From the IMG/VR virus record IMGVR_UViG_3300017991_000257, positions 1-34,389 of that record: a stretch of 34,389 nucleotides of DNA. The stretch is one strand, 5' to 3'. The DNA is from a virus. The first letter of the stretch is position 1, and the number at the start of each line of letters is the position of its first letter. A program made the position numbers and the translations under genes. This document shows positions 66-22,496 of the stretch, one piece after another. The notes beneath the pieces are model-generated. The model did not search any database and had not been told where the DNA came from. It saw only the letters and a list, made by a program, of their open reading frames with translations.

Positions 66-2057
66 TTGAGCGCCTACAGGAAAACGGCCCGGGAATCCGC
101 CCGGGACGTTGGCTTGCACCTACCGACGGCGCCGGAACTGTTGAGGAAAAAGCGCGCGCTACGAAAGGACCTAAAAAAATTCCTGGTTGGGGTTTTGCCG
201 GAAAGATTTTTCCGCCCGTTTTCAAGGGACCAGGTTAGATTTATTTCGGAACTCCAAAATTCAATCATGCACGGGGGGCAACAGGCCGTAGCATTGCCCC
301 GCGGCGAAGGCAAGACGACAATAATTATCGGCGCCATTCTTTGGGCAATCCTTTACGGTTGGCGCCGGTACGTCGTCGCGGTCGCGGCCGACCAGGGGGC
401 CGCGGAACGATTGTTGGACGGCATACGGGCCGCCCTGGATTCGTCCGAAGTTGTTAACAAGTTGTTTCCCGAGGCGGCCCATTATGCCCGCGCCCTGGAA
501 AACTTGCCGCAACGCGCGGCCGGCCAGTTGGCAAACGAGACGCCGACGGGGATAACCTGGCGCGCGAACTGCCTAATATTGGCCCAGGTCGCGGCGGGGC
601 CGGACGAATACGCGCCGGGCGCCGTTATTGAGGCCCGGGGGTTGACCGGACGAATTAGGGGGTTGCAACAAACGTTGCAAGACGGGACCGTAGTTAGGCC
701 GGATATGTATTTCATAGACGACCCCCAAACCCGGGAATCCGCGAAGTCCCCCGAGCAATGCCGGGACCGTTTGGAAATAATCCGGGCCGATATCATGGGG
801 GGCGCCGGCATAGGCCGCGACGTCGCCGCTATTATGGCTTGCACGGTAATTTGCGAAGGGGATTTGGTCGACCAGGTCCTTAACGAATGGCGAAGCATAC
901 GGGCCGCGGCGTTGTACGTCGAACCCAAGGCCGCGAATACCCTATGGCGGGAATACGTCGATATGCGGCGCCGGGCGCGCCGGGACGGTACGGAAAGGAA
1001 AATATGCAACGCGTTCTATCGAAGGCACCGCCGGAAGATGGACGCCGGCGCCAAGGTCGGGAATCCCCATAGGCGGAACGAAGGGGATTTGTCGGCGTTG
1101 CAGACCATCTACAATTATTTGGCCGACAACGGCGAGGCGTCGTATAGGTCGGAACTTCAAAACGACCCCAGGGGCCAGGAATCGGCGCTATATCAAATCA
1201 CGGTTAAAACCGTCGAATCCAGGTTTAACGGGCTGGAACGTTGCGACGCCCCCGAGGATTGCCATTTCATAATAGCCGGCGTCGACGTCAACTTTTACGC
1301 GTTAAATTGGGTTGTCGTCGCGGTCCGCGGGGATTTCGCTACATTCGTTGTCGACTATGGCCGGTACCCGGCCCACGGGGAACCTTTATGGCAACCAGGC
1401 GCCAAAGGGACGGCCGAGGCGGCAATATATATGGGCGTCGTCGACCTGGCGGACCAGTTGCGGCTACGCCATCCCCGGCTAGGGTTGTTCGCGGTTGACG
1501 GCAATTACGCGACGGATACCATTTGCCGGGCCGTTGACCATTTAGACCGAACCCTGCCGTTGCGGGTTATGGTAATGCGCGGCGTCCCGTCGGACCGCTA
1601 CAGTTTGCCGGCGGACGGCAAAAAGAAAATCCAGGACGGCCAGGAATGTTTCTACGGCGTCGGCGTCCGCGGCCCCCATGTTGTTTTCAATTCGCACTAT
1701 TGGCACAAGCGCGCCCAGGAAGGTTTTTTGTTGACCCCGGGCGCCCCTGGCGCCATAAGTCTATGGGGGGATAGCAACGCGGACCATTCGACATTCGCGG
1801 CCCATGTTTGCGCGGATAGATTGTTGGCAGTTGAAACCAACAAGGGAAAGGAAACTCATAAATGGTCGAGGAAACCAAACGACCGAAACGATTTGGGGGA
1901 CGCATTGGTAATGGCAATGGCGCCGGCGTCTTTGTTCGGCGCCCAGGCGACGGACATCCCGCAACGCATAGCGGCGCCGGCCGACGCGCCCGCGGCGCCG
2001 GCAACGCCCAAACCGCCGGCAAGGCGCCGGCAACGCGTTAGGACCATAGAAATATAA
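66..2057 (+). CDS. terL: Terminase large subunit (TerL)
   Basis: This is the ATP-driven DNA packaging motor and nuclease that docks on the portal. A Walker A motif, PRGEGKTT, lies at residues 78-85 and a Walker B, MYFIDD, at about 214-219. The C-terminal RNase H-like nuclease half shows acidic positions in AGVDVNFY (about 404-411), AVDGNYATD (about residue 480) and NDLGDALVMA near residue 620. The length of 663 aa is on the long side for the family. The listed start is a TTG at 66. The same frame has no stop back to base 1 and the TTG has no good ribosome binding site, so the true start may lie upstream of the window. A small terminase was not recognised; it may also lie upstream. The radical SAM gene follows after 15 bases. 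Confidence 0.93.
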   Translation: MSAYRKTARESARDVGLHLPTAPELLRKKRALRKDLKKFLVGVLPERFFRPFSRDQVRFISELQNSIMHGGQQAVALPRGEGKTTIIIGAILWAILYGWRRYVVAVAADQGAAERLLDGIRAALDSSEVVNKLFPEAAHYARALENLPQRAAGQLANETPTGITWRANCLILAQVAAGPDEYAPGAVIEARGLTGRIRGLQQTLQDGTVVRPDMYFIDDPQTRESAKSPEQCRDRLEIIRADIMGGAGIGRDVAAIMACTVICEGDLVDQVLNEWRSIRAAALYVEPKAANTLWREYVDMRRRARRDGTERKICNAFYRRHRRKMDAGAKVGNPHRRNEGDLSALQTIYNYLADNGEASYRSELQNDPRGQESALYQITVKTVESRFNGLERCDAPEDCHFIIAGVDVNFYALNWVVVAVRGDFATFVVDYGRYPAHGEPLWQPGAKGTAEAAIYMGVVDLADQLRLRHPRLGLFAVDGNYATDTICRAVDHLDRTLPLRVMVMRGVPSDRYSLPADGKKKIQDGQECFYGVGVRGPHVVFNSHYWHKRAQEGFLLTPGAPGAISLWGDSNADHSTFAAHVCADRLLAVETNKGKETHKWSRKPNDRNDLGDALVMAMAPASLFGAQATDIPQRIAAPADAPAAPATPKPPARRRQRVRTIEI

Positions 2058-2072
2058 CGAAAGGCCGCAACC

Positions 2073-3110
2073 ATGTTCCCGACGATTTCTACCGGCAAGA
2101 CCTACGGCGCGTTTTTCCCTTGGAAGGCGCTATTATACCCGGAAAAATGCCGGGCAATATTGCGCGGGGAGTTTCCGCCCCCGGTTACGATTCACGTTTA
2201 CCCTACCAACCGTTGCAATAACAATTGCGATTTTTGCATTATGCGGCGCGAACGGTTGACCGGCGGGGACCTAAAGCCGGCCGTCGCGGAAAAAATCGTA
2301 GCCTACGCGAACGCTAACGGCGTCGGGGCCATTCACGTTTCCGGCGGCGGGGAACCCACGTTATGGAACGGCGATATGCGGATTTTCGGCGCGTTCAAGG
2401 GGACCAAGGTATTATCGACAAACGGGCGCGCGCTATCATTGCAAACCGCGCGGTTGTTCGACCGGATTAGAATTAGCGTTAACGCCGGCACCGCGGCGAC
2501 CTACGAAACACAAACCGGGACGCCCCCGGGGACCTGGGATTATTTGGTCGCCGGGATTACGGACATATGCCAACGACCGGACCGACCGACCGGCCAGGAA
2601 ATCGGCCTTGGGTTTGTGGCGACGCCGGCAAACTGGCGGGAAATCCCTATGGCCATTCGTTTGGCCCAGGACGTCGGCGCCGATTTCGTCCATATCCGGC
2701 CGGCATATTATCCCCGGGGGACGGTCGACGACGCGGAAATCCGGCGTTTGGCCGCGGCGATTTGGCATTGTTGCGAGGCTTGCGAGGGTAATAGTAACGG
2801 GGTCCAGGTCTACGGGTCGTCGGAAAAGTTCGCGGGATACTGGTCGCCCCGGGGATTTCGCAAGTGCAAGGCGTCGCCGTTACACGCCGTAATTGCCGCG
2901 GACGGCCGTTTCCTGGTTTGCCAGGACGTTTTCGAAAGGTTCGGGGATTTGAATAACCAGGGATTCCGCGAGGCGTGGGAATCCCCCGACCATGCCGCGG
3001 CAATTGCAAGGATAAACGTCGACGATTGCCCGCGTTGCGTCATGGGCCGACCAAACGAAATATTAGAGCATATATTCGAACGGGACGAAATACTAGCGGG
3101 GTTGCTATGA
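2073..3110 (+). CDS. Radical SAM protein with SPASM-like C-terminal cysteines
   Basis: This protein has a radical SAM cluster motif CX3CX2C (C48, C52, C55), followed by VSGGGEP at residues 89-95, the usual SAM-binding turn. The C-terminal part has more cysteines (C265, C283, C319, C322 and a C233/C234/C237 group), as in SPASM/Twitch proteins that hold a second iron-sulphur cluster and often act on peptides. The substrate cannot be read from the sequence. It is the first gene of a tight four-gene set with three glycosyltransferases: its stop overlaps the next start (ATGA at 3107-3110). I infer a role in modifying a virion peptide or its sugar. It is not QueE-like, because QueE has a different cysteine spacing. 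The start ATG follows a GAAAGG ribosome binding site. Confidence 0.88.
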   Translation: MFPTISTGKTYGAFFPWKALLYPEKCRAILRGEFPPPVTIHVYPTNRCNNNCDFCIMRRERLTGGDLKPAVAEKIVAYANANGVGAIHVSGGGEPTLWNGDMRIFGAFKGTKVLSTNGRALSLQTARLFDRIRISVNAGTAATYETQTGTPPGTWDYLVAGITDICQRPDRPTGQEIGLGFVATPANWREIPMAIRLAQDVGADFVHIRPAYYPRGTVDDAEIRRLAAAIWHCCEACEGNSNGVQVYGSSEKFAGYWSPRGFRKCKASPLHAVIAADGRFLVCQDVFERFGDLNNQGFREAWESPDHAAAIARINVDDCPRCVMGRPNEILEHIFERDEILAGLL

Positions 3111-4003
3111 AGGTTGCAGTCATGTATAGCGGCGTCGGCGGACCGAACGGCGCGGATTACGTCGCGGAATTTCTAGCCCGGGGGTTTTCCCCCATTTGTG
3201 AAACTACGCTAATAGGCCGGCACGGGTCCTATCCGGTCGAACATTTGAAGATACCCGCGGGGACGGATTTGGTTGTGCATTCGTCGGGGTTCAACCTAAC
3301 CCCCGACGTTGTCCGACGGATTCGGGACGCGGCGCCGTTGTATCTATGGACGCATAACGACGAGATAGGATGGTGGCGCGACCGAATCGCCCCGGTTACA
3401 AATTTGGTCGACGTCCATTTTTCCTACACGCGCCGGCATGGTTGGGGCGACCACGTTAAATACTTGCCATTGGCCGCGGACCCCACGATATATTTCCCCA
3501 TGGAAAAGCGCGAGGATTACGACCTGGCGCTAATCGGCGCCGCGCGCCATTGGCGGAAAACCTTTTGCGAACTGCTAGAACGTCGCGGGGGTTTCCGTTG
3601 CTATTGGGGTTGGGCAATGTCGACGCCGGCCGCGGACGTCAACCGTATTTATAACGCAACGCGGGTTGTAATAGCGCCGGTCCAGGATTGCGACGAGGAC
3701 GAACCCGGCCGCGCCTGGGGTTGCCCCTGTAGGACGTTCGACGTTCCAGCGGCGGGCGCGTTCCAAATCCAGGTCGACCGCGGGGGGCTGGCGGACGTTT
3801 ACCCGGACGCCGTCGCGTTGCCGGCTATCCGGGACATAGACGCGGCCGCCGATTTTTGGCTGGCGGAAATCCGGTCATGGCTGGACAACCCCGGCGCCCG
3901 TCGCGACCAGGCCGACCGCGATTACCGCGAAACCATATCGCGACACACCTACAGGCACCGCGCCCAAACCATGATTGACCATTTTAACGGAAAGGGGTTG
4001 TAA
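3107..4003 (+). CDS. CgeB-like glycosyltransferase (GT-B, family 1 type)
   Basis: This 298-residue protein resembles the CgeB / Glyco_trans_1_2 group, which transfers sugars from nucleotide-sugar donors. Visible hallmarks are LPLAADPTIYFP (about residues 124-135), the CRTFDVPAAGAFQIQ segment that matches the R-x-(F/Y)-E-(I/V)-xA-x-G-A pattern, and the C-terminal HTYRHRAQTM helix with family-typical H and R residues. I chose the ATG at 3107, which overlaps the preceding stop as ATGA. The frame is open further upstream but that part only shadows the radical SAM gene. The stop overlaps the next start as TAATG. Donor and acceptor are unknown. In context it probably extends or starts a glycan on a phage protein. 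Confidence 0.82.
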   Translation: MKVAVMYSGVGGPNGADYVAEFLARGFSPICETTLIGRHGSYPVEHLKIPAGTDLVVHSSGFNLTPDVVRRIRDAAPLYLWTHNDEIGWWRDRIAPVTNLVDVHFSYTRRHGWGDHVKYLPLAADPTIYFPMEKREDYDLALIGAARHWRKTFCELLERRGGFRCYWGWAMSTPAADVNRIYNATRVVIAPVQDCDEDEPGRAWGCPCRTFDVPAAGAFQIQVDRGGLADVYPDAVALPAIRDIDAAADFWLAEIRSWLDNPGARRDQADRDYRETISRHTYRHRAQTMIDHFNGKGL

Positions 4004-4776
4004 TGTCGACGACGACAATTTCCGCGATTTGCCCGACGTATGCTAGGCCGCATTTACTCCGCGAGGCCGTCGAAAGTTTCCGCCGGCAACGGTTCAAGGG
4101 GACCGCGGAATTGATAGTATACAACAATTATCCCGACCAAACGATTATCATAGACGAATCCGATTTTCCCCGGGGGTTTTCGGTCAAGGTCATAAACGAC
4201 CAGGAACCCCCGGATTCCCTGGGGGAATGTTACAACCGGGCCATAGCCCACGCCGGCGGCCGCTATCTTTGCCCCTGGGAAGACGACGACATCTATTTAC
4301 CCTGGCGCCTTGCCGACGCCGTCGAGGCCCTGGAATCGAACGGCGCGGAATATCATAAAAGGCCCCATGCCTGGTTTTACAATTACGGGCGAATCGTCGG
4401 GCCGGTTTCCAATCTTTTCTTTTGCGCGGGGACCTGGGCCGCGGGTTTGTTCCGCCGGGTCGGGGGTTGCCGCGGGGATTTCGCGGCGACGGACCAGGCA
4501 TTGGAAGCGCGATTGGTTGGCGGAACCGACGACGCGATTACCGAACCGCGGGACCTCAAAAAAATCTTTTATATCTATCGTTGGGCCGGCGTAACCGCGC
4601 ATTTGTCCGGGATTAAGGACGGCCGCGAGGGGTTCGAACAGACCCGGGCGATTTTGCGGCGGGGGCAACCTACCGGGAAAGTTTTAATCCGTCCGGGTTG
4701 GGCGCGCGACTATGTCGCCATGGTCGAAAACTGGATTTCTAGCCATCCCGGAATGGGGGAGGAATACGACGTATGA
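4003..4776 (+). CDS. GT-A fold glycosyltransferase, family 2 type
   Basis: The N-terminus (TISAICPTYARPHLLREAVE) is the usual nucleotide-sugar binding strand and helix of GT2 enzymes. The metal-binding motif appears as WEDDDIYLP at residues 92-100. The protein has 257 residues and ends without a membrane segment, so it is a soluble enzyme. It is translationally coupled on both sides: TAATG with the CgeB-like gene and ATGA with the next glycosyltransferase. The family and motif are clear. Which sugar it moves and onto what is not. Together with its neighbours it could build a glycan of two or three sugars. Confidence 0.88.
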   Translation: MSTTTISAICPTYARPHLLREAVESFRRQRFKGTAELIVYNNYPDQTIIIDESDFPRGFSVKVINDQEPPDSLGECYNRAIAHAGGRYLCPWEDDDIYLPWRLADAVEALESNGAEYHKRPHAWFYNYGRIVGPVSNLFFCAGTWAAGLFRRVGGCRGDFAATDQALEARLVGGTDDAITEPRDLKKIFYIYRWAGVTAHLSGIKDGREGFEQTRAILRRGQPTGKVLIRPGWARDYVAMVENWISSHPGMGEEYDV

Positions 4777-6068
4777 ATAAACGCTATACCGTCGTTATCG
4801 CGGAACGCAACGAACCCGACCTAAAGGCGACCGTTTCAGATATCCGCGCAAATTCCGCCCTGGCCGACGTCGTCGTAATTAGCGACAAGACGGGACGCGG
4901 CCCCCAGGCTTGCCGGCATTACGGGATAACCCAGGCGAAAACGGATATCGTTATAATAGTTGACGGCCATATGAGATTCGCGCCGGGCAGTCTAGACAAA
5001 ATGGCCGCCGCGGCGTTGCCCGGCGACGTCGTAGGTTGCGCGCTATGCCATCATAACGCGGATTTATCCTTTGAGGATTCCCCCTATGCCGGCGCGCGTT
5101 GGGCCTGGAAATCCGAGGACCGCGGCCAATATTTCGTCCTAACGGGCAAATGGCGGGACCGCGCGGACCTGGGGGCTATACCTTGCGTCATGGGCGCCTG
5201 CTATTCGTTTTCGCGGGCCTGGTACGAAAAAATCGGGTCCCCCTGGCGTTTGGGTCGGGGTTGGGGGTTGGACGAAGAAACCTTATCCCTGGCGACCTGG
5301 CTAATGGGGGGGCGTTGCGAACAGGTCGCGGCGGAAGTTGCGCACCAGTACCGGATACAATCGACGTTGCCCTACAGGTTGTCGGCCGCCCAATCCGCCG
5401 GCGTTTGGGCAAACCGGATAACATTCCTGGAAATGTTGCCGTTGCCCGACCAGGACCGCGACGAATTGACGGCATGGCTACACCAAAACGGGGCGTTGCG
5501 GGGTCCCGCCGGCGTCGCGGTTCGAAACATGGTCGACCATGTAGCGACCGCGGCAATCCGCGAAACCCTGGCCGCGGGGCCGCGAACCTTTGCCGAATGG
5601 AAAACAACGTTTATAACTCAAACCGAAGGGGAGCCGCAAATGAGAAAAGAACTATTGGACCGCGCCAAACGCGCGGGAATCGACGGCGCGAAAATGACCA
5701 ATGCCGAGATTAAAAAGGCCCTGGCGGAACCCGACGCCGGCAAGGTCGCGGAAATGGTCGCGGGGGCCGGCGCCACTATGGAAAGGCCGCCGGCGGGATT
5801 CCTGGGGACGTTGGGAACCCCGGCAAAGAAAAAACGGGGGCGCCCGAGGAAAACGACGACGACCGCGACGACGCCGGCAACGCCCCCGCCGGCGCGCGCG
5901 GAAAGAATCCCGAACAGGATAACCGCGGACCTTGGGGCGCCTTGTGTCCATTGCGGCCATAGGTACGACCATAAAATAACAAATACGTTCCCGAACGGCA
6001 ACCGGCGCCGGGTTTGCGGGAAATGCGGCCGGCCATTCATTACCCGCGAAATCCCGCCCGGCGAATAA
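4773..6068 (+). CDS. Polypeptide GalNAc-transferase-like glycosyltransferase fused to a DNA-binding-like tail
   Basis: Residues 1 to about 200 form a GT-A domain with the layout of polypeptide GalNAc-transferases: start strand YTVVIAERNEPDL, a DGH metal motif at 64-66 (DxH in that family), a GACYSFSRAWYEKIG segment at 141-155 (family: GGxFxxxRxYFExIG), WGLDEETLSLATWLMGG at 164-180 (family: WGGENLELSFRxWxCGG) and a conserved late histidine, H191. That family puts the first sugar on Ser or Thr of a protein. From residue 290 on, the sequence changes character: a SAP-like helix pair, an AT-hook-like KRGRPRK, a Thr/Pro-rich linker and a CXXC/CXXC zinc ribbon. This C-terminal part has its own start signal and is listed separately. 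Start ATG overlaps the preceding stop (ATGA). Confidence 0.8.
   Translation: MNKRYTVVIAERNEPDLKATVSDIRANSALADVVVISDKTGRGPQACRHYGITQAKTDIVIIVDGHMRFAPGSLDKMAAAALPGDVVGCALCHHNADLSFEDSPYAGARWAWKSEDRGQYFVLTGKWRDRADLGAIPCVMGACYSFSRAWYEKIGSPWRLGRGWGLDEETLSLATWLMGGRCEQVAAEVAHQYRIQSTLPYRLSAAQSAGVWANRITFLEMLPLPDQDRDELTAWLHQNGALRGPAGVAVRNMVDHVATAAIRETLAAGPRTFAEWKTTFITQTEGEPQMRKELLDRAKRAGIDGAKMTNAEIKKALAEPDAGKVAEMVAGAGATMERPPAGFLGTLGTPAKKKRGRPRKTTTTATTPATPPPARAERIPNRITADLGAPCVHCGHRYDHKITNTFPNGNRRRVCGKCGRPFITREIPPGE
5640..6068 (+). CDS. Nested in-frame start: SAP-like / AT-hook / zinc-ribbon protein
   Basis: An ATG at 5640 lies in frame inside the glycosyltransferase gene and is preceded by a strong ribosome binding site, AAGGGGAG at 5626-5633, with 6 bases between. 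It would give a 142-residue product: a helix pair resembling SAP/HeH DNA-binding motifs (residues 3-29), an AT-hook-like KRGRPRK (65-71), a Thr/Pro-rich stretch and a zinc ribbon (C102, C105, C126, C129). This could be a separate DNA-binding protein, made either alone or also as the tail of the enzyme. The layout suggests two genes that were joined by loss of a stop codon. Independent translation is inferred from the ribosome binding site, not shown. Confidence 0.6.
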   Translation: MRKELLDRAKRAGIDGAKMTNAEIKKALAEPDAGKVAEMVAGAGATMERPPAGFLGTLGTPAKKKRGRPRKTTTTATTPATPPPARAERIPNRITADLGAPCVHCGHRYDHKITNTFPNGNRRRVCGKCGRPFITREIPPGE

Positions 6069-6175: not shown

Positions 6176-6400
6176 ATGGCTTTGTTAACCGTTGCCGAAC
6201 AGTTGGAACAGGTCCAGGCCGCGATAACCGCCGTATTGTTGAACCAATCTTATACCCTTGACGGCCGGACCGTTACCCGCGCGAACCTTGACGCATTGCA
6301 ACGGCGCGAGGAATATTTAACGAAACGCTACAAAGCCGAAACCGGCGCCCGTCCCGTCCTGTCAACCATGAATATGGAAGGGGTCGGGTACGATGATTAA
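6176..6400 (+). CDS. gpW-like head-tail connector or small head protein
   Basis: This 74-residue protein sits just upstream of the portal, where lambda gpW-type proteins are found. The pattern of an N-terminal helix (AEQLEQVQAAITAVL), a short turn with YTLDGRTVTRANLDAL and a second helix RREEYLTKRY matches the small helix-hairpin-helix of gpW-like proteins. gpW plugs the portal channel and joins head to tail. The ATG at 6176 follows a G-rich ribosome binding site. Its end overlaps the portal start by 8 bases, which suggests coupled translation. The family call rests on position, size and pattern only. Confidence 0.6.
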   Translation: MALLTVAEQLEQVQAAITAVLLNQSYTLDGRTVTRANLDALQRREEYLTKRYKAETGARPVLSTMNMEGVGYDD

Positions 6401-7904
6401 GACAACGCAACCGCGCCCCTTGCGTTCCGCCGTCGACCTGGTCGACACTAACGGCGCCGCTATTCGGCTAGGCTATAACGCGGTCCAGGACAAAGGCCGC
6501 CGGCAACCCCCCCGGTCCAAAATCGTTAGCGAAGACAAGGAACTAACGAAGGTAAAACGAAAAAAACTTATCGCGACGGCGAAGGACCAACCCCGGAACA
6601 ATTCGATTTTAGCCTGGATGCTACGCCGGCATTTAGACTATGTTAGCCGGTTCGATTTGCATATTCGAACGGGAAACCCGGACCTGGACAAGCGGGTTTA
6701 TTTTCTGTTCAAGCGCGCCGCGCGTCGCGAAAATTTCGACATTGCCGGGCGCCATGACCGTTACGCATTTATGCGGATTTTCGAGGCTTGCAAGACGATT
6801 GACGGGGACGCCGCGGCGCTAAAACTGGATTCCGGCCATTTGCAGGGGGTCGAATCCGACCTAATAACGACCCCGTCCAATTTGGACCAGGTCCCGAAGG
6901 AATTTAAGGAAAAAATATCCGATTTGGGGCTAGTGCTTAACGCCGCAATGAGGACGGAATATTTTTGCGTATGTTCCCGCGACCCGGACAATTCCAATAA
7001 CCGAATTTTCCAACAAATGGTAGCGGCCGCGGACGTCATTTTTGACGGGTATTTTACTAGGTTCAGTCAATCACGGGGAATAACGTTGTTCGCGCCGGCC
7101 TTGAATATGGCCGCGGACCTTTCCGAAACCCTGGAATGGGTCGCGTTAAAGGCTAAACTTCATGCCTTGTTTGGGCTGGCTTTTATGCGCCAGGCCCCCG
7201 AGCAAATGCGCTGGAACAAAACCGGATACGACGGGTCGACCGACAACGAAACCACGGACAAAAACCCCTACGAAGTCAACATAAACCCCAGGGGGATTTT
7301 TACCCTTGACCTGGACCCGGGCGACAAGGTCGAACCCGTCGAATCCAAGACGCCGTCCGGGGAACTGTTGGGTTTTTCCCGCGAGGAAATCCGAATGGTT
7401 TTGTTGGCGTTGGACATTCCATTTACGGCCTATGATTCCATGAAATCGTCGTTTAGCGCCAGGATTGCCGACCGTTCCGAATACGAGGAATCCGCGGAGG
7501 AAAAGCGAAGGAAAAACGCGGCCGTATTGCGGGAATATTCGGATTGGCGCCTAGACGATTGGTCCGAATCCGACGACAAATTGCCGGACCTTATGGCGGC
7601 CGCGAAAATCGACGCGGACGAATTAAAGGAAAAGGTCGAATGGATACCGACCGGGACGCCCTGGCTAGATAAGCGGAACGAAATCGCCGGCGACAAGGAC
7701 GCTATAAGTTTAGGCGTGGATTCCGCCGTCCGCGTCGCCAGGCGCCGCGGGATTGACGCATATCAAATAATCGACGAACAAGCGGAATTTTTGGCCTATG
7801 CCAAATCCAAGGGGGTCCCAATCTACGTTGCGGCCCCCGGCCAGGTCGCGACCGAGGAAACGCAACCAAACGCGCCGGACGAACCGGCCGACGACGGAGA
7901 ATAA
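6393..7904 (+). CDS. Portal protein (lambda type)
   Basis: This 503-residue protein forms the ring through which DNA enters and leaves the head. Features of the lambda-type portal group are the N-terminal basic region, the segment ATAKDQPRNNSILAWMLRRH (residues 61-80; typically an R-N-N/NP turn followed by a helix) and the long helical C-terminal half. Near 315-360 it has GELLGFSREEIRMVLLAL and a SSFSARIADRSEYEESAE stretch that matches the conserved nYSSaRa...e pattern of these portals. It overlaps the upstream gpW-like gene by 8 bases and is followed 2 bases later by the prohead protease. Confidence 0.87.
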   Translation: MIKTTQPRPLRSAVDLVDTNGAAIRLGYNAVQDKGRRQPPRSKIVSEDKELTKVKRKKLIATAKDQPRNNSILAWMLRRHLDYVSRFDLHIRTGNPDLDKRVYFLFKRAARRENFDIAGRHDRYAFMRIFEACKTIDGDAAALKLDSGHLQGVESDLITTPSNLDQVPKEFKEKISDLGLVLNAAMRTEYFCVCSRDPDNSNNRIFQQMVAAADVIFDGYFTRFSQSRGITLFAPALNMAADLSETLEWVALKAKLHALFGLAFMRQAPEQMRWNKTGYDGSTDNETTDKNPYEVNINPRGIFTLDLDPGDKVEPVESKTPSGELLGFSREEIRMVLLALDIPFTAYDSMKSSFSARIADRSEYEESAEEKRRKNAAVLREYSDWRLDDWSESDDKLPDLMAAAKIDADELKEKVEWIPTGTPWLDKRNEIAGDKDAISLGVDSAVRVARRRGIDAYQIIDEQAEFLAYAKSKGVPIYVAAPGQVATEETQPNAPDEPADDGE

Positions 7905-9282: not shown

Positions 9283-10242
<960 letters not shown>

Positions 10243-10314: not shown

Positions 10315-10725
10315 ATGACGACCCTGGCCCAACAGTTGGAAATAGACGCCGCGGCAATCCTGGCGGATTTGCCGAAAACCGATAGCGTCGTTTTCCAGGA
10401 ACCGACCGACACCACGGGCGACGACGGGCAAACGACCAGGACCTGGTCGACCCTGGCAACGGCCGATTGCAACGTAGAAGTTAAGGACGTCAAAGAGGAA
10501 TATATAAACGAACGGCTATCCGTTTTCCGGTTGTATTCCATCGTCGGGCCGTATATCCCAGGCATAACGGAAAAATGCCGGGCGATTTACCAAGGCAAAA
10601 CGCTAAACATTGCCAGGATAAAATCCGACGAAATAACGAAACGCTATCTAATGGTCGAAGCATACGCGGACAAGGATACATACGAAAACGCATTTATAAC
10701 CACTACGACGACGACGACAACCTAG
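10315..10725 (+). CDS. Head-closure / head-tail joining protein with 8-Thr tail
   Basis: This 136-residue protein is the first gene of the connector set after the capsid. Its small beta-rich composition and late region (GKTLNIARIKSDEITKRYLM, in which a strand is followed by a basic-charged strand) resemble SPP1 gp16 / HK97-type head-closure proteins. These seal the connector once packaging ends. It ends AFI followed by eight Thr, then TAG. The ATG at 10315 has a strong ribosome binding site (AAAGGGGAAACC). The family call rests on position and weak sequence pattern. The Thr tail is seen directly. Confidence 0.62.
   Translation: MTTLAQQLEIDAAAILADLPKTDSVVFQEPTDTTGDDGQTTRTWSTLATADCNVEVKDVKEEYINERLSVFRLYSIVGPYIPGITEKCRAIYQGKTLNIARIKSDEITKRYLMVEAYADKDTYENAFITTTTTTTT
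10699..10722 (+). repeat. Thr-codon run coding 8 Thr
   Basis: Eight Thr codons, using ACC, ACT, ACG and ACA, lie directly before the TAG stop of the head-closure gene. Confidence 0.93.
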
Positions 10726-10736
10726 CGGGGCGCGAA

Positions 10737-11162
10737 ATGGCGCGGACGGTAAATATTGACATTGTCGGGAACCTAACGCTACAACGCAAGTTGTTAGCGT
10801 TGGGGCGCCATGCCCAATTGCGGGTTTTGCGTCCGGCCGTTAAGTTTGCCCTAACCCCGATTAGCCGGCGCGCGCGAAGTTTGGCGCCGAAACAATCCGG
10901 CCTGCTGAAAAAGGCAATTAAGCCTATCGTATCGAAACGGGACGCCGTCGGCAAGGTTTGGGTCGACCCTAAAATAGTTGGCGAATACAACGGCGAAAAA
11001 CGTTGGCCGATGAAATATGCCCATTTGGTCGAATTTGGAAACAAGTACATGGCGCCGCGGTCGTTTATCCGCGCGGCCCGCGACCAGGGGCGCGCCGAGG
11101 CGCTAAACCGATTGCGCGAAAAGGTACGGTCGGGATTAAAACGAGAGGCGGCGCGCGCATGA
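10737..11162 (+). CDS. HK97 gp10-like connector protein
   Basis: This 141-residue basic protein has the hallmarks of the HK97 gp10 family: an N-terminal strand (TVNIDIVGNLTLQRKLLAL), the segment ALTPISRRARSLAPKQSGLL with conserved AR..aP...G.L, a strand-rich centre, and YAHLVEFGNKYMAPRSFIR near residues 98-116, the classic (Y/H)-(V/L)-E-x-G...aPFl motif. Proteins of this family act at the head-tail junction. I chose ATG 10737, 11 bases after the previous stop. The frame is open further back but only shadows the upstream gene. It has no Thr tail, unlike its neighbours. It overlaps the next start as ATGA. Confidence 0.85.
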   Translation: MARTVNIDIVGNLTLQRKLLALGRHAQLRVLRPAVKFALTPISRRARSLAPKQSGLLKKAIKPIVSKRDAVGKVWVDPKIVGEYNGEKRWPMKYAHLVEFGNKYMAPRSFIRAARDQGRAEALNRLREKVRSGLKREAARA

Positions 11163-11629
11163 TTCGAACGTCGTTAAGGCTTTACCTTTTGTCTGTCCAG
11201 GCCGTTTTTGACCTGGTCGCGGCCCGCATTTACGCGGCGCCGGCGCCCCAAGGCGTAACGTTTCCGTTTTTGATTATTTCGCGCCTGTATGGCGAATCCG
11301 ATTTGTCCCATGCCGGGATTTCCGGGCGCGCGAGGGAAACTTGGCAAATAGATTGTTACGCCAAATCCCAATCCGGCGTCGACAACCTGGCCGACGCCGT
11401 CCGCCGGGCCTTGCATGGGTTCGCGGGGGATATGCAGGGGACTAACGTTTCCTATTGTGCAATGGCCGTTAAACGCGATTTGACGGACATTGCGGGGGAC
11501 GCGTCCCAGGCCGCGGAATACCGCGTGGAAATGGAATTTACCATTACGCACGACGAAGCGACCGAGGATAGGATAACGACGACGACAACCACGACGACAA
11601 CCACGACGACAACCACAACGACAACCTAG
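11159..11629 (+). CDS. DUF3168-like tail terminator with 17-Thr tail
   Basis: This 156-residue protein matches the DUF3168 / tail-completion pattern: LLSVQAVFDLVAARIYAAPAPQGVTFPFLIISRL (with the AVxxLVxxRIY...P.G...P.i.i.ri theme), then ETWQIDCYAKSQSGVDNLADAVRRALHG. Such proteins cap the end of the tail tube next to the head. The final 17 residues before TAG are all Thr, coded by a 12-base unit (ACGACGACAACC) repeated about four times. I chose ATG 11159, which overlaps the upstream stop as ATGA. The tail sits outside the recognised domain. Confidence 0.82.
   Translation: MIRTSLRLYLLSVQAVFDLVAARIYAAPAPQGVTFPFLIISRLYGESDLSHAGISGRARETWQIDCYAKSQSGVDNLADAVRRALHGFAGDMQGTNVSYCAMAVKRDLTDIAGDASQAAEYRVEMEFTITHDEATEDRITTTTTTTTTTTTTTTTT
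11576..11626 (+). repeat. 12-base Thr-codon repeat coding 17 Thr
   Basis: Seventeen Thr codons before the TAG stop are built from a 12-base unit (ACGACGACAACC) with small changes at each end. The repeat unit differs from the 6-base unit in the capsid gene, so the two tails appear to have expanded independently. Confidence 0.94.
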
Positions 11630-11646: not shown

Positions 11647-12081
11647 ATGGCAAGCAAAAAGGACGGATTCGGGGTTCGGATTACCCTGGAAACTTCCGGG
11701 GTCACGTTCAAGGAAAAAAGCGTAACCCCCCCGGGAATCGAAGGCCAGGACCCGGTCGACGTAACCAACAATTCCAAGGCGAGTTTCCGCGAAAAGTACG
11801 CGCGCGCCTTGAAGGAAATCACGCCGGCGTCGGGTTCGGTCGAATACGACGCGTCGCAACTGGCGGCAATTAATGGCGCGGTTAACGTCCATCAGTTTGT
11901 CCGCCTGGATTTCGAGGAAGGCGACGCCCTGGGGTTTTACGGATTCCTCCGTAATTTCGTCCCCGACGAAATGACCGACGGCGAGGCGCCTACCGCGGCC
12001 CTGGAATTGGTCCCCTGCGGGGTCAACGCGTCCGGGACCGAGGAAGGAATTAACTACTACACGACCACGACCACAACCTAA
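11647..12081 (+). CDS. Major tail (tube) protein with 6-Thr tail
   Basis: This 144-residue protein lies between the tail terminator and the tail-assembly chaperone pair, which is the standard place of the siphovirus tail tube. It is beta-rich, with alternating strands (GVRITLETSGVTFKEKSVTPP, then a region with ALGFYGFLRN) that fit a tube subunit. It ends NYY followed by six Thr and TAA. Ribosome binding site GAAAGG precedes the ATG at 11647. The call rests mainly on gene order. The C-terminal Thr tail would decorate the outside of the tail shaft if it is exposed. Confidence 0.78.
   Translation: MASKKDGFGVRITLETSGVTFKEKSVTPPGIEGQDPVDVTNNSKASFREKYARALKEITPASGSVEYDASQLAAINGAVNVHQFVRLDFEEGDALGFYGFLRNFVPDEMTDGEAPTAALELVPCGVNASGTEEGINYYTTTTTT
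12061..12078 (+). repeat. Thr-codon run coding 6 Thr
   Basis: Six Thr codons (ACG, ACC, ACG, ACC, ACA, ACC) lie directly before the TAA of the tail tube gene. Confidence 0.93.
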
Positions 12082-15310: not shown

Positions 15311-15685
15311 ATGGCTAAAGGGGTCATATTTACGCGGGAATCGGCCGGGCGGATTGGCGCCGCGGTTCGACGCGTCGAAAAAATGCCCCAGGCCGACGCC
15401 GTAATCCGCGGAAACCATAAACCCCGGAGCGTCGCCGGGACGGCCCTATATTGGGCCGAAATAACCGCCAAAACCGACGACACAACCTATACCGGCGATA
15501 TCTATAACGACCGGAACGCGGACGCCCTGGCGTCGGACGTTACCGTCCGCGTCCATGACCTGGCCGCCGGCGAAACCATAGCAAACGGGACGTTTTTACC
15601 CGTCGCCCTGGAACCCTGGACCGAGGGGGACCCGGCCGAAACGGTTACATATTGGACCGTTAAACAACAAATAGGGTTATTCTAA
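15311..15685 (+). CDS. Putative small tail protein, unknown
   Basis: This is a 124-residue protein of unknown family between two distal tail proteins. The sequence is beta-rich with no membrane segment and no motif that I recognise. ATG 15311 is one base after the preceding TGA. The stop TAA overlaps the next start (TAATG), which points to coupled translation with the following tail protein. Its role in the tail tip is inferred from position only. Confidence 0.5.
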   Translation: MAKGVIFTRESAGRIGAAVRRVEKMPQADAVIRGNHKPRSVAGTALYWAEITAKTDDTTYTGDIYNDRNADALASDVTVRVHDLAAGETIANGTFLPVALEPWTEGDPAETVTYWTVKQQIGLF

Positions 15686-16404
15686 TGAGTAAGCGCCAGG
15701 TTGAAATTTGGTACGACGTCGTTAACGACGTCTTGAGAGACGCGAACGGCGAGGAATTGAACTCAATTCTATACCCGTTTATCTATTTCGAGGAACAACC
15801 GATATTCCAGGTCCATCTAGTGACCGATTCGGATTTGACCCCGCTAACGACCATAACCGGGTCCGTTTCGTTGTCCGCGGTCATAGACGACGATTTTGAT
15901 GCCGAAGACGACGCGTATTGTAAGACGCTAAATGCGGGAATGAACGTCGCCGGGGATTGGGTCGGGGGCGGAAACGCCGACATTTCCCAGGGGCAAGTTT
16001 CAATTAGGCTAGACGCCAACAATACCAACTATGAAACGAAAATCGGGGAAACCCGAAAGAAAAACGTTTATTTGGAAATCCAGGTTAGGGACGCCGGGGA
16101 CGATGAATTGCAAGCCGCGTTCGAATTTCCCATGGTCGCAAAGAACTTGCGCGACCAATCCGGGTCGGTCCCCCCGGCGCCCGCGGGCGACTACTACACA
16201 AAGACGGAAATAGACGCCCTGCTATTGGCTTGTTTGGTCCAGCCCGTCCGCTATCTCGAAATGGTCGACGTCGGCACCGAGGAACGGCGCTATTTCTACC
16301 TAGAAAACGGGATAGACACAAACGGCCCGACCACCACGACCACGACTACGACAACCACGACGACCACGACTACGACGACAACCACTACGACGACCACGAC
16401 ATAA
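15685..16404 (+). CDS. Tail protein with 24-Thr C-terminal tail
   Basis: This 239-residue protein has a beta-rich N-terminal part (YDVVNDVLRDANGEELNSI..., IYFEEQPIFQVHLVTDSD) and a GDYYTKTEIDAL segment near residue 168, a motif common in fibre or receptor-binding proteins where it starts a trimeric helical region. The chain ends with GP and then 24 consecutive Thr before TAA, the longest of the six tails in the window. The codons mix ACC, ACG, ACA and ACT. I cannot assign a family. Position between tail tip genes and adhesion genes suggests a surface-exposed fibre or upper baseplate part. Confidence 0.55.
   Translation: MSKRQVEIWYDVVNDVLRDANGEELNSILYPFIYFEEQPIFQVHLVTDSDLTPLTTITGSVSLSAVIDDDFDAEDDAYCKTLNAGMNVAGDWVGGGNADISQGQVSIRLDANNTNYETKIGETRKKNVYLEIQVRDAGDDELQAAFEFPMVAKNLRDQSGSVPPAPAGDYYTKTEIDALLLACLVQPVRYLEMVDVGTEERRYFYLENGIDTNGPTTTTTTTTTTTTTTTTTTTTTTTT
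16330..16401 (+). repeat. Thr-codon run coding 24 Thr
   Basis: Twenty-four Thr codons directly before TAA form an imperfect repeat that mixes ACC, ACG, ACA and ACT. The codon mix makes long slippage less likely than in the capsid tail, so the length is probably maintained at protein level. Confidence 0.94.
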
Positions 16405-16766: not shown

Positions 16767-17480
16767 ATGGCTATGTCCATTACTTTAACGTCGGAATCCG
16801 CGACCCTGTCGGTTACGGTTTCGTCGTCGGGAACCCAGGGACCAATCGGGGTTAACTGGTTGGGGGAATGGTCCGGGGCAACCCAATATTCTGTCCGCGA
16901 CGCCGTAACCTACCAGGGGTCGACCTATTACGCATTGCAGACCGGGACCGATAAAAACCCCGTCACCGAAACGGCATATTGGGCGATTTTGGCCCGCGGC
17001 GTCTATTGGCGCGCGGCCTGGTCGGGGGCGACGGCCTATCTAACCGGCGACGCCGTATCCTATGCCGGCGCGTCTTATTACGCATTGCAGGCCGGCACAA
17101 ACAAAAACCCGACAACCGAGCCGACCTATTGGGGCCTAATGGCCGCGAGGGGCGACGACTATCCTTCCGTCTATCTGTCCGGCGCCGGCCCCCATGCCCC
17201 GACCCTGGGGCAAGCCGGGTCCATGTTTTGGCTATCGCATACCGCGGCGAATGTCTTTACAATTCCGGCAAATGCTACGGTTGCGTTTCCCGTCGGGACG
17301 AAACTTTCCGTTATCCAGGAAGGGGCCGGGATAACGACTATCCAGGCGGCCGCGGGCGTTACCCTTAACGGCGTAACCCCTGGCGGGGTCGCCATTTGGC
17401 GCCAGTACGGCGCCGCGACATTGGTTAAGCGCGCGGAAAATACATGGGTTATATTCGGCGCCGTCGGAGTAGTGGCATGA
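16767..17480 (+). CDS. Tail fibre with two CBM5/12-like repeats
   Basis: This 237-residue fibre has two tandem copies of a carbohydrate-binding type 5/12 (chitin-binding like) motif, at about residues 31-72 and 81-122. Each has W-x-GEWSGATQY/AY..GDAVxYxGxxYYALQxGTxKNPxTExxYW. The C-terminal half is a beta-rich fibre tip (FTIPANATVAFPVGTKLSVIQEGAG) of a type that repeats in phage fibres. It probably binds host surface glycans. Two possible ATGs lie six bases apart at 16767 and 16773. ATGA overlap links it to the next gene. Confidence 0.75.
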   Translation: MAMSITLTSESATLSVTVSSSGTQGPIGVNWLGEWSGATQYSVRDAVTYQGSTYYALQTGTDKNPVTETAYWAILARGVYWRAAWSGATAYLTGDAVSYAGASYYALQAGTNKNPTTEPTYWGLMAARGDDYPSVYLSGAGPHAPTLGQAGSMFWLSHTAANVFTIPANATVAFPVGTKLSVIQEGAGITTIQAAAGVTLNGVTPGGVAIWRQYGAATLVKRAENTWVIFGAVGVVA

Positions 17481-18796
17481 TTGGAATAGCCGCAATAAAC
17501 CAGGACCCGTTTTCTACCGAATGGAAAACGGACAACGCCGGCGCGACCGGGGCAAACCAAATCGGGTTGCCCCTGTACGCCGGCGGGGATTATGATTTTT
17601 GGGTTTATTGGGGGGACGGTACGGCCGACCGGATAACGGCCTGGGATGACGCGGCCAAAATCCACACCTACGCGGCGTCGGGGTCCTATTCGGTTAGGAT
17701 TGAAGGAAAGACGCTAACCAACTGGAATTTTAATACGACAATAACAAAGGACCCCGAAAAGATAACCGCCGTTCGAAAATGGGGGCGAATCTTTAGATTC
17801 GGGACCGCCGGAAATTATTTCTTGAATTGCACAAATCTAGATGTTACGGCAACCGATATCCCCATAATCCCGCCGACGTTCGCCCAGGCGTTTACGGGTT
17901 GCGCGACGTTAACCGACCTTCCCCGGGCGGACGAATGGGAAATGTCCGCCGTAACTTCAATTTACCGTATGTTCTACGGTTGCGTCAACTTTAACGGCAA
18001 CGTCGGAAATTGGAACTTACCGCTAGCAACAAATTTCCAACAGGTTTTCGACGGTTGCGCGGCGTTTAACAACGGGGGTTCGCCGTCCATCAATAACTGG
18101 CGCGTTCCGGCCGGCCAAAACTTTTCCTATGTTTTCCGGTATTGCGCGGCATTTAACCAACCTATCGGGGGTTGGCAGTTGGGCGCCGCGACAACGTTTA
18201 ACCGGGCCTTTTGGGGTTGTTCCATATTCGACCAGGATTTAAGCGCCTGGGACGTTAGCACCGTAACCGATTTTTCCTATATGTTTTATCTATGTTCCGC
18301 GTTCAATAATGGCGGGTCCTCCGGGATTGGCAACTGGCAAACCGACGCCCTGGAACTTACGGTTAGCCAATTTCAATACGCAAGCGAATTTAACCAACCT
18401 ATCGGGGGTTGGAATATGGCGGCCGTTACCAATACCGGAAATATGTTTTTCGAGGCTATAAAGTTTAACCAGGATTTAAGCGCCTGGGACGTTGCCGCGG
18501 TTACTTATATGGGGTCCATGTTCCGTTCCCCCTTTGGCGACCCAATGGCTTTCGACCAAAACCTGGGGGCCTGGGACGTCCAAAACGTCGCCAATTTTAC
18601 GTCGTTTCTAGTCTATTCCCAATTGTCCGTCGCCAATTATGACGCATTATTGATTGGTTGGGCCGCGTTGCCGTCATTGGTCGCGGGCCTTTCCTTTAAC
18701 GGCGGGTTTTCCCAATATAGCCCGGCGGGCGCCGCGGCCCGGGACTATATAATTTCGACCTATGGCTGGACATTTACCGACGGGGGGCCGGCATGA
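17477..18796 (+). CDS. BspA-like (DUF285) repeat fibre with PKD-like N-terminus
   Basis: This 439-residue protein starts with a PKD-like beta-sandwich (YAGGDYDFWVYWGDGTADRI, residues 34-53; WGDGT hallmark). It continues as DUF285 / BspA-like repeats from about 130 to the end: FNQPIGGW, FDQDLSAWDVSTVTDFSYMF and similar units recur with regular spacing. Such repeats in bacterial surface proteins bind host partners. Here they probably form a receptor-binding surface. ATG 17477 overlaps the preceding stop (ATGA). The open frame reaches further upstream but that part shadows the previous gene. Confidence 0.85.
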   Translation: MIGIAAINQDPFSTEWKTDNAGATGANQIGLPLYAGGDYDFWVYWGDGTADRITAWDDAAKIHTYAASGSYSVRIEGKTLTNWNFNTTITKDPEKITAVRKWGRIFRFGTAGNYFLNCTNLDVTATDIPIIPPTFAQAFTGCATLTDLPRADEWEMSAVTSIYRMFYGCVNFNGNVGNWNLPLATNFQQVFDGCAAFNNGGSPSINNWRVPAGQNFSYVFRYCAAFNQPIGGWQLGAATTFNRAFWGCSIFDQDLSAWDVSTVTDFSYMFYLCSAFNNGGSSGIGNWQTDALELTVSQFQYASEFNQPIGGWNMAAVTNTGNMFFEAIKFNQDLSAWDVAAVTYMGSMFRSPFGDPMAFDQNLGAWDVQNVANFTSFLVYSQLSVANYDALLIGWAALPSLVAGLSFNGGFSQYSPAGAAARDYIISTYGWTFTDGGPA

Positions 18797-21147: not shown

Positions 21148-21528
21148 ATGCGCGAACTAGACGCAAAGACGGTTTTAGCGATAGCCTGGCACCAGGCCCG
21201 GGTATCGCCGTTGCGTCCGGTTTGCGACGTAAATTGGCGAATCGCCGGCGGCCTGGCGTCGCGATTGGCGGCCAAAACCGGGACGGTTGCATGGTACGAC
21301 GCCAAGGCCGACGCGGTCGTAATCCCCGCCCAATATGCGTCGGTTTGCGCGGACGAAATGTACGCGCCGACGATAACCCATGAACTGACCCACGCTTACC
21401 AATGCTTGCGAATGGGTTTTATCTGCTTTCAATTCGCTAAAACCTTCCGCCGTCGGCTAATTGAGGCCGAGGCCGTCCGCGAGGAAAAGCGCGCGCAAAA
21501 AATACTAAACGTCGGGGTCCTGGACTAA
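21148..21528 (+). CDS. Putative zinc metallopeptidase (HExxH)
   Basis: This 126-residue protein has TITHELTHAYQ at residues 75-85 (H78, E79, H82), the HExxH zinc-binding signature of metallopeptidases, with a nearby EAEA (about 106-109) that could supply the third ligand. It lies between adhesion proteins, so it may cleave host surface proteins or a maturing virion protein. I saw no signal peptide. Start ATG 21148 follows the LamG stop by 5 bases and the TAATG links it to the next gene. It is short for a stand-alone peptidase, so it may be a minimal catalytic core. Confidence 0.62.
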   Translation: MRELDAKTVLAIAWHQARVSPLRPVCDVNWRIAGGLASRLAAKTGTVAWYDAKADAVVIPAQYASVCADEMYAPTITHELTHAYQCLRMGFICFQFAKTFRRRLIEAEAVREEKRAQKILNVGVLD

Positions 21529-22496
21529 TGGCGGGTTGGGATACAAATTGGGTCGAATCCCAGGGGATAGGAAAACTTCCCCTAAACGCGTTCAACCAAT
21601 TGCGCGCGGCCCTGGCGGAACGGGCCGCGGTAATGAATAGCGCGCCGACCTTGCCGGCGAACCTTTCCGCCGGCGAATTGCCGTCGGCGTCCTGGTTTAC
21701 GACGTTTCAATCCGCGGTTACGGCAATGTTGCCGGCGTCCCCGTCCGGGTCCCTTTATGGTTGGGTCAACCATAACGATAGCGCGACGCGCGTTGGCTAT
21801 TGGGACGGCGCGGCCTGGGGGGCAAACGCCGGGCCTAGTCTTTCGTTTTGGTCACAATCGACAATGCTAACGCAAATCGGGGCCGCGTCGCGGGTCGCGG
21901 CGCCAGGCGCCGGGGATATTTGGCAATCCGCGGCATGGGCCTACCAACAGTATCAGATACTAAATCAATTACGATGGTATGGCCGCCTGGCGCCGGAATC
22001 CTTGTCAACAAACGTATTTTACAAATACGGAAGTTCGGCCATAGACTATCCGACGGCCGCGGCAATCCATGACGCAATGGCATGGGCCGCGGTTTCGACG
22101 GCGCCCGTTCCCAACAATACCCGGAACAACTGTTGGCAGGCCCAGGCCGTCGGGGGGTCCTTTTGGAAACAATCCATTAAATGGGTTTGGTCCTGGTCAA
22201 CCTGGGGGGTATCGTCCGCGGAGTTCGACGTTTACGTTAGGCCGAACCAATTAACCGGCGGCCCCGTCTACAATATGCACACGGCAAACGTCGCCAACTA
22301 TGTAAAAAATATAACTGTCGCCCCTAGTACGGGATTTGAATACGGCGGGACCCACGCGCTAACCCCGACGCTAAACAATACGATTTGGTTCCGGGCGACG
22401 TCGAATTGGTACGGGCTATATCTAGTCGTCAAGTTCGACGTTTCGGGGGGATTCGACTACTACGACCCGGACCCGCCGGCTACGACGACGACCTAG
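21528..22496 (+). CDS. Putative tail adhesion protein with 4-Thr tail
   Basis: This 322-residue protein is not recognised by family. It is Trp- and Tyr-rich (for example WKQSIKWVWSWSTWGVSSAEFDVYV), with a helical start (LNAFNQLRAALAERAAV) and a beta-rich end. Its C-terminus reads DPDPPATTTT and then TAG, giving a short version of the Thr tail found on other virion proteins. It follows the metallopeptidase by a TAATG overlap and is the last gene before the lysis candidates. I infer a virion role from position and tail. Confidence 0.5.
   Translation: MAGWDTNWVESQGIGKLPLNAFNQLRAALAERAAVMNSAPTLPANLSAGELPSASWFTTFQSAVTAMLPASPSGSLYGWVNHNDSATRVGYWDGAAWGANAGPSLSFWSQSTMLTQIGAASRVAAPGAGDIWQSAAWAYQQYQILNQLRWYGRLAPESLSTNVFYKYGSSAIDYPTAAAIHDAMAWAAVSTAPVPNNTRNNCWQAQAVGGSFWKQSIKWVWSWSTWGVSSAEFDVYVRPNQLTGGPVYNMHTANVANYVKNITVAPSTGFEYGGTHALTPTLNNTIWFRATSNWYGLYLVVKFDVSGGFDYYDPDPPATTTT
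22482..22493 (+). repeat. Short Thr-codon run coding 4 Thr
   Basis: Four Thr codons (ACG ACG ACG ACC) directly before TAG. Too short to be convincing alone, but it fits the pattern of the five longer runs. Confidence 0.7.

Follow-up and report, generated by a model that had tools for sequence, protein, structure and literature searches.

The polypeptide GalNAc-transferases of family GT27 initiate the mucin-type O-glycans of animals and apicomplexans. On the phage side, C-terminal O-glycans on mycobacteriophage virion proteins were reportedly described by Freeman et al. in 2023. In mycobacteriophages Che8, Corndog, and Myrna, the capsid and tail-tube proteins are glycosylated by glycosyltransferases that the phages encode (PMC12363180). 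The locus analyzed herein has in common with these systems (Che8 gp110, Corndog gp38, Myrna) that the glycosyltransferases are encoded by the phage. It differs in that the Che8 capsid protein ends in KTGS and its major tail protein in SDGS, with no Thr run. Moreover, its enzyme falls outside the Che8 gp108-110 glycosyltransferase family, members of which gave no match to the phage enzyme profile described below, even at E = 10. Phage virion glycosylation as such is hence a known kind of system; what is new here is the enzyme family and the homopolymer tag.

The window, i.e., the whole 34,389-nucleotide stretch of viral DNA analyzed (IMG/VR record IMGVR_UViG_3300017991_000257), contains a glycosyltransferase gene within a head and packaging gene cluster, as well as several late genes whose products end in runs of threonine (Table 1). 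Based on sequence and a predicted structure, this gene probably encodes a GT27-like O-glycosyltransferase that glycosylates the Thr-rich tails of the phage's own virion proteins.

Table 1. Features of the window, with related genes in other phages where indicated.
Feature	Position	Strand	Support
Terminase large subunit	66..2057	+	PHROG 38, 5.9e-26
Radical SAM/SPASM enzyme, possible sugar or substrate modifier	2073..3110	+	PF04055, PF13186
GT-B-type (Glyco_trans_1_2), putative glycan-extending enzyme	3107..4003	+	PF13524, 4e-16
GT2-type glycosyltransferase partner, DDD motif	4003..4776	+	PF00535, 2e-10
Full gene, GT27-like glycosyltransferase with C-terminal zinc ribbon, 431 aa	4773..6068	+	ORF; orthologous fused ORFs in L058, L117, L004, L259, L287
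GT-A catalytic domain, residues 1 to about 285	4773..5627	+	AlphaFold pLDDT 84.6; GT27 profile and fold matches
D64-G65-H66 metal motif (DxH)	4962..4970	+	Aligned with DSH of GalNAc-T2/T9/T10; D and H in 20/20
WGLDEETLSLATWLMGG, counterpart of WGGENLEISF..W.CGG	5262..5312	+	HMM alignment; G165, E168, D/E167 each 20/20
H191, counterpart of third Mn ligand (His of VGHxxR segment)	5343..5345	+	Alignment; 20/20
Internal Shine-Dalgarno-like site and ATG 5640	5626..5642	+	Same point in L058, L117
C-terminal zinc ribbon (CVHC...CGKC)	5943..6053	+	Weak Pfam zinc-ribbon matches; homologous to stand-alone genes in relatives
Stand-alone zinc-ribbon genes of capsid-lineage-1 phages	L268 2696-3112, L270 1992-2219, L272 2621-2929, L277 189-419, L282 2052-2243		Directly upstream of portal
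Small gene between glycosyltransferase gene and portal	6176-6400		
Portal protein	6393..7904	+	PF05136, 1.1e-26
441-aa protein, presumably protease or scaffold	Between portal and major capsid protein		
Major capsid protein, proposed acceptor	9283..10242	+	PF20911, 6.9e-19; phrog_212
Poly-Thr T15 of major capsid protein	10195..10239	+	Tails T14 in L058, T7AAT6AAT7AG in L117, ST6SSS in L004/L259/L287
Poly-Thr T8 of head-closure protein (10315-10725)	10699..10722	+	PF05521, 2e-9; L110 orthologue T7A
Poly-Thr T17 of tail terminator (11159-11629)	11576..11626	+	PF11367, 9.6e-12; L110 orthologue T12
Poly-Thr T6 of probable major tail protein (11647-12081)	12061..12078	+	Position after tail terminator; L110 orthologue T8
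Poly-Thr T24 of late protein (15685-16404)	16330..16401	+	L110 orthologue T20
Short Thr tail T4 (PPATTTT) of late protein (21528-22496)	22482..22493	+	

An earlier note on this DNA had pointed to hallmarks of polypeptide GalNAc-transferases in the gene product, and this resemblance leads both by sequence profile and by predicted structure. Specifically, a phmmer search of the PDB with the single 289-aa query returned GalNAc-T10 as its best match (3.3e-5), and all 15 matches down to E = 10 were GalNAc-Ts. A profile constructed from seven homologues, using phage sequences only, was then compared to the PDB by hmmsearch and matched GT27 structures across residues 2 to about 250 at 5e-20 to 1e-14, as well as an apicomplexan GT27 member at 3e-9; the best family other than GT27 reached 1.1e-5, and only in the N-terminal, nucleotide-binding half. 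With an AlphaFold model built from seven sequences (pTM 0.87; pLDDT in Table 1), Foldseek recovered GT27 members in 50 of 50 cases among the matches listed. VIA Z values for GT27 were 21.5-25.6 (rmsd about 2.6-3.3 over 245-266 of the 289 residues), with GlfT2 next (17.8), and chondroitin polymerase (15.3), B4GALNT1 (14.3), and B4GALT1 (13.8) below it. By profile and by fold, GT27 is therefore the family nearest to the GT-A domain, ahead of GT2 and the other GT-A families. A closer structural match to lipid- or glycan-directed GT2 enzymes, which the earlier note had named as the result that would overturn its proposal, was not found in this comparison, GT2 structures ranking under GT27 by both measures. 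The only Pfam match above threshold was to the broad GT2 model, Glycos_transf_2 (1.1e-6).

The motifs that had drawn attention to the gene, at D64/H66, W164-180, and H191, are more than chance, because the single query by itself finds GalNAc-Ts. Both the D64-G65-H66 metal motif and H191 are present in the translation, and D64, H66, and H191 are invariant in all 20 phage members of the family, as are R48, G51, G165, and E168, while residue 167 is D or E throughout. These three residues align with the DxH and late His metal triad of GT27, in which their counterparts bind Mn (PMC11074326). The W164-GLDEETLSLATWLMGG-180 segment likewise exists and has a GT27 counterpart, but its likeness to WGGEN did not hold: every one of the 20 members reads WG-x-(D/E)-E (W164 being Y or F in three), so that E168 stands in place of the N that, together with E, contacts GalNAc in GT27.

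Overall, both profile and predicted fold show that the phage enzyme shares the entire GT-A catalytic domain with GT27; also common to the two are the metal triad, the donor-site R and G, the WG..E..S..W..GG segment, and the HxxR...PY segment. In contrast to GT27, it is cytoplasmic, only 16-20% identical, and has (D/E)-E for the E-N sugar-binding pair. It also lacks the ricin-type lectin domain (no Pfam match to a lectin domain in the 431-aa protein) and the N-terminal membrane anchor and stem region, residue 1 aligning with the start of the GT27 catalytic domain (structure chain residue 134); instead it has a zinc ribbon, with which the frame ends, in one phage lineage (lineage 1) or nothing in another (lineage 2). 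Because of the (D/E)-E in place of E-N and the missing lectin domain, we use the name GT27-like rather than assigning the enzyme to GT27, and on the sequence evidence it would be premature to call it a polypeptide GalNAc-transferase.

The ORF list and translation establish that the glycosyltransferase gene beginning at 4773 is real, its start ATG overlapping the stop codon of the preceding GT2 gene (ATGA). However, the end previously given, 5639, is not a stop; the frame runs on for 142 codons to 6068, and these codons, which form a Thr/Pro-rich linker and the zinc ribbon, are in the same open frame in relatives as well. The earlier end is understandable, because a Shine-Dalgarno-like aaggggag (5626-5633) followed by the ATG at 5640, both inside the glycosyltransferase frame, resembles a start site. 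The site and ATG are kept at the corresponding position in L058 and L117, and from the sequence it is possible that ATG 5640 is an internal start that yields a free zinc-ribbon protein. By Pfam, the ribbon weakly resembles those of NrdR and IS1595. Relatives without the glycosyltransferase (L268, L270, L272, L277, and L282) carry a lone homologous ribbon gene, likewise weakly NrdR/IS1595-like, upstream of portal. This suggests that the enzyme became joined in frame to a phage gene that predates the fusion, and whose zinc-ribbon product may still be translated from a separate start. Lineage-2 enzymes are without the ribbon.

Upstream, the genes run from terminase through radical SAM/SPASM, GT-B, and GT2 to the GT27-like gene, followed by the small gene, portal, the 441-aa protein, and capsid. 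The core of GT2 and GT27-like genes was retained in L058, L117, L004, and L287, and homologues of the GT2 partner (1e-37 to 1e-25) were found beside the distant enzymes of lineage-2 phages L005, L006, and L118. In L110, the place of the radical SAM gene is taken by a CxxC-rich protein of ~263 aa that looks radical SAM/SPASM-like by eye. We also noted that the late protein at 17444-18796 has, by eye, BspA/DUF285-type repeats and is possibly an adhesin or tail fibre.

Thr-tailed virion proteins, which had been named as the likely partners of the enzyme, do exist in the window, where six late proteins end in threonine runs directly before the stop codon (Table 1). The runs are uninterrupted and use a mixture of synonymous codons (within T24, 11 ACG, 7 ACC, 3 ACT, and 3 ACA), which indicates that selection acts on the protein. 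The sister phage L110, whose enzyme is 59% identical in the glycosyltransferase domain, has five tails (the capsid tail being T14) on the same orthologues as the window, with different lengths. Such termini are rare: among open frames of 100 codons or more in 120 random viral stretches, a T-run of at least five in the last 20 residues occurred in 1 of 2519, and random non-overlapping frames contained no run of even four (0 of 1035). Across relatives, the tails remain Thr-rich while length and flanks vary (T15, T7AAT6AAT7AG, ST6SSSV, YPT7PTTPQ, ETTSTTSTTF). In the connector region of L117, a protein that is probably the tail terminator (10462-10938) has its Thr run at the N-terminus (MPDTTTTTTTTTG) and not at the C-terminus. 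A search of open-access literature on poly-Thr tails of phage proteins found nothing relevant.

We compared the occurrence of enzyme and tail within two phage lineages. The first, to which the window belongs, was searched both by capsid protein (80 homologues) and, separately, by enzyme. The enzyme was visible in seven loci, namely the window, L117, L253 (the L058/L110 contig), L259, L263 (the L004 contig), L287, and L280, in which it is cut by the contig end, and a Thr-rich capsid tail was present in 7/7; L117, with the tail given in Table 1, was found via its enzyme alone. Among loci in which the region was visible without the enzyme, 1/30 was Thr-tailed (L256, a 10-kb fragment with no glycosyltransferase at the syntenic place). 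The lineage-1 tree shows that the loci depend on one another, those with neither enzyme nor tail lying together on one side of one branch.

Lineage 2 (L005, L006, L118) has an unrelated putative capsid protein of 570-700 aa that had no match in PHROGs and is putatively the major capsid protein from its place among genes presumed, by size and order, to encode portal and scaffold. This protein was found in 56 loci, and the enzyme was looked for in 43 whole records from among them. It was present in 14, and 11 of the 14 capsid proteins end in T-runs or TTSTTSTT; the other three (L348, L350, and L347) have a SQADANAKAL-type C-terminal extension instead. A Thr tail was absent from all seven records that were at least 36 kb long and had no enzyme (Fisher 0.001, inflated by kinship). 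Fisher values overstate the association because the sequences share ancestry. The lineage-2 tree places the change in enzyme and the change in tail on a single branch (SH-aLRT 99), after which the tail was lost twice, where the protein acquired a different C-terminal extension. About one or two changes are needed on the tree of each lineage. Taken together, the two lineages amount to about two independent joint events, after which both traits were retained for long. The earlier note's suggestion that enzyme and Thr-tailed virion proteins form an enzyme-substrate pair is thus supported by co-occurrence in two lineages with unrelated capsid proteins.

Poly-Thr C-termini before the stop were found on several virion-like proteins in 98 stretches of other phages (L007-L104), some of which have three or more tails per genome. 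Mostly, the available contigs of such phages had no GT27-like enzyme, and only G025 gave a confident new match; G001 and G047 were included in this search as known carriers of the glycosyltransferase. The idea that all poly-Thr phages carry the enzyme was accordingly rejected, G025 being the only confident case among records found by their tails, and a general richness of poly-Thr phages in GT2 was not supported either (6/40 versus 8/44). Since most other Thr-tailed phages are without the enzyme in their available contigs, Thr tails as such do not need it, and those of phages in which it was not found must be served by other enzymes or have another purpose. Conserved search patterns were chosen from the alignment with GalNAc-T fragments. 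A single-protein search of viral and genome contigs gave no related loci, a match in a faecal phage (H21/L003) was spurious, and genome contigs scanned with the phage alignment contained no relatives.

The one bacterial relative that was found is encoded on a plasmid. This Cytobacillus spongiae glycosyltransferase (WP_233812127) matches the phage family profile at 4e-32 and has DAH, WGHEDVELS, and KHLFR motifs, but differs from the phage enzyme of the window in being bacterial and without a zinc ribbon, and in having WGHED as in glycan-extending enzymes. The Cytobacillus plasmid gene (L002 5899-6774; DAH, WGHED) adjoins a galactosyltransferase-related protein.

Under the explanation that we favor, the enzyme would be a Mn-dependent, nucleotide-sugar glycosyltransferase of GT-A fold from a phage clade related to GT27, and would attach sugar to Thr hydroxyls at the C-termini of capsid, head-tail connector, and tail proteins. 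The neighboring GT2 would then extend or modify the glycan, as would the GT-B and radical SAM enzymes in the window phage, producing a sugar-coated virion; catalytic activity, acceptor, order of steps, and role on the particle are what we infer here. There is some chance, albeit a low one, that the enzyme acts on the tails second, extending a chain in the manner of GT2/GT7-like enzymes on glycans, once the GT2 (4003-4776) or an enzyme of the host has made the bond to Thr. Glycan-extending GT-A enzymes carry E-D/E motifs, to which (D/E)-E is nearer than to the E-N of GT27, and in both lineages the GT2 partner is found beside the GT27-like enzyme; yet the glycan-extending structures (15.3, 14.3, 13.8) scored far under GT27 (21.5-25.6), and the HxxR...PY segment conserved here is the one seen in GT27, which acts on peptides. 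Unmodified tails, sticky or structural, that co-occur with the glycosyltransferase through shared ancestry only would accommodate the roughly one joint change per lineage and the many Thr-tailed phages without the enzyme. We regard this as very improbable, given that the coincidence must have happened in two lineages with unrelated capsid proteins and that the tails stay Thr-rich while their length and flanking residues change freely.

Many phage GT2 enzymes act on host surface glycans or lipids in superinfection exclusion or serotype conversion, GtrB-type phage glycosyltransferases are common, and Glycos_transf_2 was the lone Pfam match above threshold, but such a role seems very unlikely for an enzyme with no membrane segment apparent in its sequence, whose gene lies between those for terminase and portal in a stretch of late head and packaging genes, with lipid- and glycan-directed GT2 structures as clearly worse matches, and tracking the Thr tails of capsid proteins. 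Even less credible is glycosylation of modified bases in phage DNA, with the zinc ribbon binding DNA, as might be read from the weak NrdR/IS1595 likeness and from the fused gene adjoining packaging genes. No base hydroxylase, hydroxymethylase, or DNA methyltransferase was detected among the window genes scanned with Pfam; the ribbon also stands alone in relatives without the glycosyltransferase and is missing from lineage-2 enzymes, and the Thr tails would be left unexplained.

More generally, we lean toward the view that GT27-like, mucin-type O-glycosylation decorates homopolymeric Thr tails in at least two phage lineages, with a low-complexity tag defining the substrate. The locus connects phage virions with an enzyme family known chiefly from animal mucins, and places both halves of a testable enzyme-substrate pair within one small genome. 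If this explanation is true, phage virion glycosylation would reach beyond mycobacteriophages and would have arisen with a different enzyme family, while simple soluble bacterial enzymes would be capable of O-glycosylating a plain Thr tag. It would also bear on the origin of GT27, and would constitute a prokaryotic virus counterpart of mucin-domain glycosylation.
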